64,000 nucleotides of DNA from Prevotella sp. E15-22. Lineage in GTDB: Bacteria; Bacteroidota; Bacteroidia; Bacteroidales; Bacteroidaceae. The stretch is taken from positions 2,976,001 to 3,040,000 of the forward strand of contig NZ_CP096247.1 of the NCBI RefSeq assembly GCF_023204875.1, read 5' to 3'. Under the pieces are notes generated by a model. The model made no database searches, was not told the DNA's origin, and saw only the letters and a list, made by a program, of their open reading frames with translations. Each line of letters opens with the position of its first letter. The first letter of the stretch is position 1. A program made the position numbers and the translations under genes. Positions 43,638 through 46,979 of this stretch are shown here, one piece after another.

Positions 43638-44165
43638 ATGAAAAGAATCATTCTCATAGGCTATATGGGAGCCGGCAAGACCACCGTCGGCAAGGCGCTC
43701 TCCAAGGAGCTGAACATCCCCTTCTACGACCTCGACTGGTATATCGAGAGTCGCCGTCGCAAGACGGTGCCCCAGCTCTTTGCCGAGGTGGGCGAAGCAG
43801 GGTTCCGCGAGATAGAGCGTAGCATGCTGCACGAGGTGGCCGAGTTCGAGGATGTCATCATCAGCTGTGGTGGCGGCACGCCTTGCTTCTTCGACAATAT
43901 GGCGTATATGAACCAGCAGGGCCAGGTGGTCTATCTGCAGGCCTCGCCCGAGGTGCTGCATGGTCATCTGCTCATGGGTAAGACGGAGCGTCCGCTCCTG
44001 AAGAACAAGAGTAAGGAGGAACTGCTGGACTTCATCAAGGCGCAACTCAAACAGCGTGAGCCCTACTATACGCAGGCGCAGTTCACGCTCAATGTCGACC
44101 TGATGGAGAACTACGAGAAGATCCAGATCACCGTCAACAAGCTTCGCTCGCTGCTGGGCATCTAA
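43638..44165 (+). CDS. aroK: Shikimate kinase
   Basis: Shikimate kinase phosphorylates shikimate at O3 in the aromatic amino acid pathway. The 175-residue length is normal. Walker A GYMGAGKTT is at 8-16, followed by the substrate-binding DLDWYIE, the FREIERSML segment and the glycine loop SCGGGTPCF; the lid has KTERPLL. It lies 6 bp after topA, so expression from the topA promoter is likely, and it ends at a strong terminator. Confidence 0.96.
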   Translation: MKRIILIGYMGAGKTTVGKALSKELNIPFYDLDWYIESRRRKTVPQLFAEVGEAGFREIERSMLHEVAEFEDVIISCGGGTPCFFDNMAYMNQQGQVVYLQASPEVLHGHLLMGKTERPLLKNKSKEELLDFIKAQLKQREPYYTQAQFTLNVDLMENYEKIQITVNKLRSLLGI

Positions 44166-44188: not shown

Positions 44189-44224
44189 AAGCGGTTGGAA
44201 AGTGCATGCTTTCCAACCGCTTTT
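44189..44224 (+). terminator. Terminator of topA-aroK
   Basis: A perfect 14-bp stem (AAGCGGTTGGAAAG / CTTTCCAACCGCTT, 6-base loop) is followed by TTGCTTTG, 23 bp after the aroK stop. Confidence 0.9.
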
Positions 44225-44399
44225 GCTTTGATATTATTTTACAATAGCGCCTCTGAGATTTAAAAATTCTGAGCCAAAAATTTTTTCTGTGCGTACAGGC
44301 GAAATATGAGCATGTTTGTAAATCACTGAAAATGAGGGGTTTACAAAATTGGCTCGAAAAGTGTAATGATTTAGAACGCAATCGAATATTCGTTTAGGT

Positions 44400-44487
44400 T
44401 GTAACGGAGCCTGAGTTACACTGCAACGGAGCCTGTTTTGCATGGTAAAACAGCATGAGTTGCATCGTAAAACAGCCTCCGTTGCAT
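44400..44487. repeat. Four-unit 22-bp array of degenerate palindromic repeats with swapped half-sites
   Basis: Four consecutive 22-bp units (44400-44421, 44422-44443, 44444-44465, 44466-44487) each have the form G[CT]AA...TT[GA]C. The inner text of each half is one of three words: AACGGAG, AAAACAG or AACTCA. The units combine them as AACGGAG/AACTCA, AACGGAG/AAAACAG, AAAACAG/AACTCA and AAAACAG/AACGGAG, the second word always inverted. A decayed fifth unit may follow. It lies between aroK and speA. No known element is recognised. Confidence 0.75.
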
Positions 44488-44592
44488 CCTAAAATCGATA
44501 GGGGTCCTCCGAAAGGTCATTTTTACCCCATTTTTGCGTTCTAGTTTGCATTTTTTCAGAACCCCTTTTTTCGGCACTATTTCTTTACAATA

Positions 44593-44680
44593 TACAATGA
44601 ACAATGTACAATGAACAATGTACAATGAACAATGTACAATGAACAATGTACAATGAACAATGAACAATGTACAATGAACA
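44593..44680. repeat. Tandem 14-bp (2 x 7) repeat TACAATGAACAATG
   Basis: Four exact 14-bp units TACAATGAACAATG are followed by a fifth with one extra AACAATG heptamer and a partial unit. The array is a chain of ACAATGA/ACAATGT heptamers, a candidate for slipped-strand copy-number change. Confidence 0.9.
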
Positions 44681-44682
44681 AA

Positions 44683-45054: not shown

Positions 45055-45062
45055 TATCTTTG
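45055..45062 (+). promoter_or_regulatory. Promoter -7 element for speA
   Basis: TATCTTTG matches TAnnTTTG and lies 21 bp before the speA start at 45084; the in-frame codon at 45060 lies inside it and is rejected as a start. Confidence 0.65.
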
Positions 45063-45083
45063 CAGTCAAAAATAAAACAAAAG

Positions 45084-46979
45084 ATGAAGAAATGGACCTT
45101 GGATGATGCCCGCGAGTTGTACAACATCAACGGATGGGGCACAAGTTACTTTGGAATTAACGACAAGGGCGACGTCTATGTGACGCCCAGCAAAGACGAT
45201 GCACAGATAGACCTGCGCGAGGTGATGGACGAGCTGTCGCTGCGCGACGTGACCGCCCCTGTGCTGCTGCGTTTCCCAGATATTCTGGACAATAGAATCG
45301 AGAAGACCTGGAGCTGCTTTAAGAAGGCAGCCAAGGAATACGACTACAAGGCCGAGAATTACGTGGTCTACCCCATCAAGGTGAACCAGATGCAGCCTGT
45401 GGTCGAGGAGATTATCAGTCACGGCCGCAAGTTCAACCTGGGTGTTGAGGCAGGCTCGAAGCCTGAGTTGCACGCCGTCATCGCCGTACAGTGTCAGAGC
45501 GACTCGATTATCGTGTGCAACGGCTACAAGGACGAGAGCTACATCGAGTTGGCCCTGCTGGCGCAGAAGATGGGTAAGCAGATCTTCATCGTGGTTGAGA
45601 AGTTGAACGAGCTCGACATCATTGCACGCGTGGCCAAGCAGTTGAACGTGCGCCCCAACATCGGCATCCGCATCAAGCTGGCATCGAGCGGCAGTGGCAA
45701 ATGGGAGGAGAGCGGCGGCGACGCCTCGAAGTTTGGACTGACCAGTGCCGAGCTGCTGGAGGCCCTGGAACTGCTCGACAAGAAGGGCATGCGCGACTGT
45801 CTGCGCCTGATTCACTTCCACATCGGCTCGCAGATCACCAAGATACGCCGCATCCAGACGGCCCTGCGCGAGGCCTCACAGTTTTATATCCAGCTGCATA
45901 AGATGGGTTACAACGTGGACTTCGTGGACTGCGGTGGCGGTCTGGGCGTCGACTACGACGGCACGCGCTCACCATCGAGTGAGAGTTCTGTGAACTACTC
46001 TATCCAGGAGTATGTGAACGATTGTATCTACACCTTTGTGGATGCGGCCAACAAGAATAACATCCCCCACCCCAACATCATCACGGAGAGCGGCCGCTCG
46101 CTGGCTGCCCACCATTCTGTGCTGGTGATCGACGTGCTGGAGACGGCCTCGCTGCCTGAGATGCCCGAGGAGTTTGAGCCCGATGAAAACTCGCACCAGC
46201 TGGTGAAGGACCTGTACGAGATCTGGGACAACCTCTCGCCTCGCAACGTGCTGGAGGACTGGCACGACGCTGAGCAGATTCGCGAGGAGGTGCTCGACCT
46301 GTTCTCACACGGCATCGTGGATCTGAAGACGCGTGCCGAAATCGAGGCGATGTACTGGAGTGTGTGTCACGAGATCAACGCCCTGGCGAAGAACCTGAAG
46401 CATATCCCTGAGGAGCTGATGAATATTGATAAGCTGCTGGCAGACAAATACTTCTGTAACTTCTCACTGTTCCAGAGTCTGCCCGACTCATGGGCCATCG
46501 ACCAAATGTTCCCCATCATGCCCATCCAGCGACTGGACGAGCGCCCCACGCGCAATGCCACGCTGCAGGATATCACCTGCGACAGCGATGGCAAGATTGT
46601 GAACTTCGTGACCAACCGTCACAACTCACACTCACTGCCCGTTCATGCGCTGAAGAAGAACGAGACCTACTATCTGGGCGTGTTCCTCGTGGGTGCCTAC
46701 CAGGAGATTCTGGGCGACATGCACAACCTCTTTGGCGACACCACGGCCGTTCACGTATCGGTGAAGGACGGCAAGTACCACATCGACCAGATCTTCGACG
46801 GTGAGACCGTGGCCGAGGTGCTGGAATATGTGCAGTATAACCCCAAGAAGCTGGTGCGCCAGCTGGAGATCTGGGTGTCGAAGAGTGTGAAGGAAGGCAG
46901 AATCTCGCTGGAGGAGGGTAAGGAGTTCCTGAGCAACTATCGCAGCGGACTCTACGGCTACACCTACCTGGAGCAGTAA
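45084..46979 (+). CDS. speA: Biosynthetic arginine decarboxylase
   Basis: This PLP enzyme converts arginine to agmatine, the first step of polyamine synthesis. The 631-residue length and the N-terminal sequence (WTLDDARELYNINGWGTSYF) fit the SpeA family. Lys99 in VVYPIKVNQM is the expected PLP-binding lysine; GVEAGSKPEL, HFHIGSQI, VDCGGGLGVDYDG and TESGRSLAAHHSVLV follow, and the C-terminal domain ends NYRSGLYGYTYLEQ. It heads a plus-strand run ending with argB, so arginine synthesis and consumption genes bracket the run. A promoter -7 element precedes it. Confidence 0.96.
   Translation: MKKWTLDDARELYNINGWGTSYFGINDKGDVYVTPSKDDAQIDLREVMDELSLRDVTAPVLLRFPDILDNRIEKTWSCFKKAAKEYDYKAENYVVYPIKVNQMQPVVEEIISHGRKFNLGVEAGSKPELHAVIAVQCQSDSIIVCNGYKDESYIELALLAQKMGKQIFIVVEKLNELDIIARVAKQLNVRPNIGIRIKLASSGSGKWEESGGDASKFGLTSAELLEALELLDKKGMRDCLRLIHFHIGSQITKIRRIQTALREASQFYIQLHKMGYNVDFVDCGGGLGVDYDGTRSPSSESSVNYSIQEYVNDCIYTFVDAANKNNIPHPNIITESGRSLAAHHSVLVIDVLETASLPEMPEEFEPDENSHQLVKDLYEIWDNLSPRNVLEDWHDAEQIREEVLDLFSHGIVDLKTRAEIEAMYWSVCHEINALAKNLKHIPEELMNIDKLLADKYFCNFSLFQSLPDSWAIDQMFPIMPIQRLDERPTRNATLQDITCDSDGKIVNFVTNRHNSHSLPVHALKKNETYYLGVFLVGAYQEILGDMHNLFGDTTAVHVSVKDGKYHIDQIFDGETVAEVLEYVQYNPKKLVRQLEIWVSKSVKEGRISLEEGKEFLSNYRSGLYGYTYLEQ

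Follow-up and report, generated by a model that had tools for sequence, protein, structure and literature searches.

What kind of element varies by exchanging whole words instead of single bases? In the window, by which the whole stretch of 64,000 nucleotides analysed here is meant, a first-pass annotation had placed an array at 44400..44487, made of four units in 22-bp register and of three interchangeable words, with the right-hand word of each unit inverted. The four units were confirmed on the plus strand, with starts at 44401, 44423, 44445 and 44467, and span 44401-44488. Each consists of a 7-mer word, one centre base, an inverted 7-mer word and a 7-nt spacer. Two of the words, AACGGAG (designated a) and AAAACAG (b), stand as described, but the third, given as AACTCA, has either G or T as its seventh base and is divided here into AACTCAG (c) and AACTCAT (d). 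With capitals for inverted words, the window array reads aC aB bD bA. Unit 1 (44401..44422) is AACGGAG-C-CTGAGTT with the spacer ACACTGC, unit 2 (44423..44444) is AACGGAG-C-CTGTTTT with GCATGGT, unit 3 (44445..44466) is AAAACAG-C-ATGAGTT with GCATCGT, and unit 4 (44467..44488) is AAAACAG-C-CTCCGTT with GCATCCT, which continues beyond the unit. That the array goes beyond chance was indicated by a degenerate unit pattern with 110 matches in the own genome compared to three when read backwards, by the words common to 28 arrays, and by a lag-22 self-identity of 0.73 (shuffled maximum 0.40). Upstream lies a shikimate kinase gene (43638-44165), itself located after a topoisomerase I gene, and downstream the arginine decarboxylase gene speA (45060-46979).

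The array is the core of a non-coding element of about 350 bp (~44241-44591, plus strand, ACAATAGCGCC...TTTACAAT), so that the location given before fits the array but covers only this core. The ends were placed where agreement stops among the 28 aligned copies from the own genome, of which the window's, L021, belongs to family A. That the array forms the middle of a dispersed element, and that its units together fold in silico as one hairpin, goes beyond the first-pass annotation. On the same strand, the leader begins with an end block (44241..44270, ACAATAGCGCCTCTGAGATTTAAAAATTCT), the best conserved leader stretch between the two families, with a mean identity of 0.985 among family-A copies and 0.926 between A and B. 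It further contains a small hairpin (44317..44345, plus strand), formed by alignment columns 77-81 with 101-105, where two pairs carry changes on both sides in some copies. The tail (44494..44591, plus strand, ATCGATAGGGG...GGCACTATTTCTTTACAAT) includes a cassette at 44506..44530 on that strand, which is block-exchanged between copies (L034 compared to L037, L026 compared to L040). Among open reading frames of at least 84 bp, one of at least 80 aa partly overlaps the element on each of two minus-strand frames, and none of at least 80 aa both starts and ends inside the window element.

Two features were noticed at the borders of the element. A 7-bp tandem repeat, ACAATGA/ACAATGT, begins at its 3' end (44586-44681 in the window); the repeat is present at the 3' end of six copies (the window's, L022, L024, L025, L026 and L042), where it runs into another segment common to these copies. 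At the other border, many copies have a GAA about 8 bases before ACAAT despite differing 5' flanks (for example, 44225-44245 in the window), which resembles, in opposite polarity, the GAATTATCTTTACA end of the elements in genome G017.

In the own genome, 28 copies of the element were identified, 22 of family A and six of family B. A query of 301 bases comprising the array and its surroundings returned 37 matches: the 28 copies, one fragment of the tail, and eight opposite-strand matches to these same copies, which arise from the partly palindromic array. With the leader as the only query, the same 28 copies were retrieved along with one 52-bp fragment, and no further full end was found elsewhere in the genome. 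This fragment is located about 1.6 kb before the element L030 and precedes a gene for 457 aa, a near copy of which precedes the element L037. All family-A copies but one are 81-100% identical to the window copy (21 of 22); the remaining one, L042, has a 61-bp deletion inside the array and an identity of 71%. For the six family-B copies, the identity is 74-80% over the aligned part. Four units are present in 27 of the 28 copies.

For the comparison of words, 28 four-unit arrays were used, 27 from the own genome and one (L065) from RUG12087, an uncultured Prevotellaceae MAG (G422); L042 was left out, since only one unit remains. Exact words were identified at 223 of 224 half-sites, the sole exception being AATTCAG in L046. 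Counting centre bases, the arrays fall into 12 arrangements, and by words alone into nine. The arrangement of the window, aC aB bD bA, is present in 13 arrays, aC aB bA bA in five, aC cB bA bA in two (L036 and L065), and aC cB bD bA and aC dB bA bA in one array each, and the six arrays of family B all differ from each other once centre bases are counted. The right word of unit 3 is A, not D, in eight family-A-type four-unit arrays and in all six of family B. Where words in the 22 family-A-type arrays deviate from the majority, they do so only at the position sets {188,189}, with 191 in addition for L041, and {215,217,218}; the remaining differences in the array lie at centre-base or spacer positions. 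Over leader columns 58-120, the mean difference is 14% within family A (86% identity) and 36% between A and B.

Individual copies document the block changes. L035 and L036 have about 2.4 kb of upstream sequence in common, which as scanned in L036 contains a 16S rRNA gene and a tRNA; their flanks beyond the element are unrelated. From -2400 to the element end (~2.6 kb) they show seven differences, three of which constitute a single word in unit 3 (D to A). In L032, the spacer is ACCATGC, compared to GCATGGT in 20 of the 28 arrays, meaning that the loop between words B and b, the central spacer, is exactly inverted. L034 and L037 differ, among other differences, by a word-plus-spacer block and by the 25-bp tail cassette. 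The view that variation proceeds by whole words and not by random decay is thus borne out, both across the 22 family-A-type arrays and between L035 and L036, and the reshuffling of the same words among loci, which had been anticipated, is seen in the 12 arrangements and in the recurrence of the layout with other vocabularies. Freely varying words or a unique array, either of which would have spoken for mere decay, are not what the own genome contains. Absence from close relatives, the third outcome named in this sense, is partly true, in that one close relative was found with a single copy.

This relative is RUG12087, with one copy compared to 28 in the own genome, although copies may be missing from it because it is a draft MAG. 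At its copy, the left-hand gene and about 44 bp of the right flank match L023, but unlike in L023, about 0.8 kb of other sequence separates the left-hand gene from the element. In the comparison of ~1.2 Mb of this MAG, eight of the 28 element neighbourhoods were matched. Both flanks were comparable for L021, L041 and L024, and the element is absent from all three sites; at the site orthologous to that of the window, 226 bp lie between the flanking matches, and the L024 site differs from the own genome by more than the element. The site orthologous to the window's (L173:1655-1881) carries a different short tandem repeat, which is ATCGGAGGTA-like. By eye, no target-site duplication was recognised in the copies inspected, and the sites in the MAG are too diverged for placing the junctions. 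In the neighbourhoods of the copies, no transposase was tied to the element, and no shared neighbour gene, recombinase or binding protein was identified within ~1.5 kb. A gene travelling with the element was also considered and rejected: of seven ORF clusters present in at least two genomes, those inspected (by the longest member, all but two or three small clusters) resemble translations of the element itself.

The copies are unevenly placed on the chromosome. All 22 family-A copies are located at 71-848 kb and 2331-3314 kb of the own contig C1, the half around the likely origin, and leave 44% of the chromosome empty; 20 of 200,000 uniform draws were as extreme, for a pattern noticed post hoc. 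Five of the six family-B copies fall in the arc that is empty of family A. Sampled GC skew, in which some samples had the wrong sign, points to an origin close to the contig ends and to a terminus at about 1.75 Mb.

In silico, the plus strand of the window element folds into one long hairpin (-111.9 kcal/mol, z -5.6), in which unit 1 pairs with unit 4 and unit 2 with unit 3; for the minus strand, the values are -101.6 kcal/mol and z -5.2. AATAGCGCC and GGCACTATT pair in the predicted fold, but the outermost bases have no inverted-repeat match; the only terminal inverted match seen is a short one, AATAGYGCC. Pairing was analysed by shuffling half-words within each of 11 genomes, with P-values that are too small because of shared descent among arrays. 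Units that combine two like words fall below expectation in five of the 11 genomes; in the own genome, for which 13 arrays were used (nine distinct by words), two were observed and 17.3 expected. Complementary unit pairs are commoner than expected in four of the 11. In G311 and G247, complementary units are not in excess and tend in the opposite direction, so that the hairpin is not universal.

On balance, the array is probably part of a non-autonomous, mobile (MITE-like) fold-back element, whose whole-word differences would stem from template switching or from gene conversion among its own 22-bp units, which are complementary to one another. Copies would spread by transposition, with the enzyme supplied in trans. 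Mobility is supported by the 28 copies in the own genome compared to one in RUG12087 and by the sites of L021 and L041 without the element. One word would be overwritten with another when a polymerase changes template within the hairpin, or by conversion from unit to unit. This is supported by the exact words, the block differences, the spacer inversion in L032, the long-hairpin fold and the complementary pairs in four of 11 genomes. Spacer inversion and the homogenisation of arms are both reported, in the cited passages, as products of template switches from one inverted repeat to the other (PMC8604942). The D-to-A change between L035 and L036 lies opposite c and is not accounted for by a copy of the opposite unit, so that direct-repeat conversion or exchange between copies would be needed in addition. 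Words would stay exact through homogenisation together with selection, either by hairpin geometry or by a putative binding factor. Selection or between-copy exchange is favoured here, since homogenisation within the element alone leaves the exact words common to A and B unexplained. Against mobility and the hairpin stand the absence of a recognised duplication in the copies inspected, the short terminal match, the failure to tie a transposase to the element near the copies, and double-sided changes in only 3 of 67 consensus pairs. Dozens of copies show multi-base block changes directly, so that copying between palindrome arms would be measurable in a bacterium.

Relatives of the array were searched for throughout the genus and order. 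With the whole element as query, matches were obtained in 20 of 398 genomes sampled from the genus, the own included. From nine genomes, 25 array stretches (three pairs of which overlap) align without gaps over 88 columns, and from these a sequence-only model was built, with arrays called at E<=0.001. With it, the array layout was identified in 134 of the 398 genomes, including the own and the training genomes, with vocabularies that differ; this count was obtained with strict filters, a rough calibration and at most 11 candidates scored in the genomes listed. For a sample of 198 genomes of the order, matches were found in the own genome and in two of 197 others, G457 from another genus of the same family (13 matches) and G460 (one borderline match). 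Blocks similar to the leader or tail were identified at seven loci of other genomes. Five of these show a 22-bp period in cores chosen by eye, where the lag-22 identity is 0.56-0.63 and the maximum after shuffling 0.34-0.40; most of the inverted matches keep the same spacing, and four of the five use other words. For L097 and L099, which have related end blocks, no 22-bp period was found in the core. At L097:100-520 (genome G404), related leader and tail blocks flank such a core, an indication that the array may be exchanged as a cassette.

An alternative that we consider possible but rather unlikely is that a factor with sequence-specific DNA or RNA binding occupies the array at several sites. 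Each word would then be a half-site and each unit a hetero-dyad, repeated about every two helical turns, and factor and vocabulary would co-evolve. This reading would account for words that are exact in both families in spite of the leader difference of up to 36% (columns 58-120), and for the depletion of like-word units in five of 11 genomes. It also fits the vocabularies of 30 other genomes, collected from arrays of at least three chained units. Here, AAAACAG recurs in 18 genomes and AACGGAG in nine, and the words change from genome to genome (AATTCAG, AAAACAG and AATCCAG in G311; AAAACCT, AAAACAG and AAAAGCG in G017; AAAAGAG in G247) with the 22-bp register kept. However, these arrays were picked by a skeleton of an AA or TT core and 8 of 13 fixed positions, so that the constancy of the skeleton is partly selected for, and the words are so to a lesser degree. 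Moreover, exchange between copies could equally keep words exact, and the neighbourhoods hold no candidate factor. Of the readings in the first-pass annotation, neither the protein-binding array nor the recombination substrate, taken as site-specific, was established. A related and doubtful possibility combines mobility with a combinatorial site code, in which genus-wide elements carry 22-bp frames of two inverted 7-bp words read by a putative co-evolving partner; related elements would then keep their ends and pitch and change their vocabulary. If a factor does read the words, the arrays would be the targets of a binding system not described so far, spread over a large gut/rumen lineage.

A use by the host as an RNA hairpin at gene 3' ends, in processing, stability or termination, with word exchange as an incidental matter, appears improbable. 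An end of the element lies within ~75 bp of a predicted stop codon (custom gene calls) in 16 of the 22 family-A copies, and the array is more stable as RNA on the plus strand in 26 of 28 cases. However, the orientation relative to neighbouring genes is mixed, and when the whole element is folded, the plus strand is the more stable one in no more than 21 of 28 copies, with all six of family B reversed. Covariation is weak, and together with the fold falls short of proving an RNA. No Rfam family was matched at gathering score by the element, the best match being below threshold, and no terminator-like site was identified inside the window element, the nearest one (44189-44222) preceding it.

Ordinary tandem repeats in random decay are hardly credible, since, although the units are tandem and 61 bp are deleted within the array of L042, changes inside words occur only as blocks, the unit number is four in 27 of 28 copies, and 134 of the 398 genomes show the layout. 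A plasmid or phage iteron was likewise rejected, as plasmids and phages gave no match to the element, and four viral contigs contain single units with no array seen there.

The closest published system found, as far as the cited passages go, is the BrickBuilt MITE of Porphyromonas gingivalis, a dispersed intergenic non-coding element from the same order with 19 copies in one strain (PMC4596501). Like the element described here, BrickBuilt consists of a leader, a central short-period array and a tail in dispersed copies, with predicted long stem-loops and no internal transposase (PMC4596501). Its array, however, is described there as consisting of direct repeats of 23 nt, which number 1 to 22.8 in an element and have imperfect bases scattered among them (PMC4596501), whereas the period here is 22, the units number four in 27 of 28 copies, and inverted words are exchanged whole. 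The ends of BrickBuilt are given as IS5-type terminal repeats GAGACC.../...GGTCTC (PMC4596501), compared to ACAATAGCGCC and TTTCTTTACAAT here. REP and REPIN sequences are, in the passages cited, similarly dispersed, mostly intergenic, palindromic and non-autonomous, but REPs are 20-40 bp long, most with GTAG or CGTC tags (PMC3116915, PMC3733652), compared to ~350 bp with a unit array. Quasipalindrome template-switch mutation resembles the changes seen here, in that several bases change at once with the opposite arm as template and the loop is inverted, and is described in these sources for isolated inverted repeats (PMC7202029, PMC8604942, PMC8794818). Here, to judge from the sequence alone, its substrate would be tandem units in a family of dispersed elements.

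MITEs in general are short, non-coding and multicopy, as is the element with its 28 copies, and they show insertion polymorphism between relatives, as seen for the L021 and L041 sites that are empty in RUG12087; they have a matching autonomous transposase, whereas none was identified near the copies here. Terminal inverted repeats and target-site duplications are further traits of MITEs, to be compared with the short terminal match and the junctions described above. The hallmarks of integron attC and invertase sites are a crossover core and a recombinase. In the open-licence literature, within the portions of it that were available, no account of these arrays from the lineage was found. What is new compared to these systems is that inverted words stand in a fixed register of 22 bp and that their vocabulary changes.
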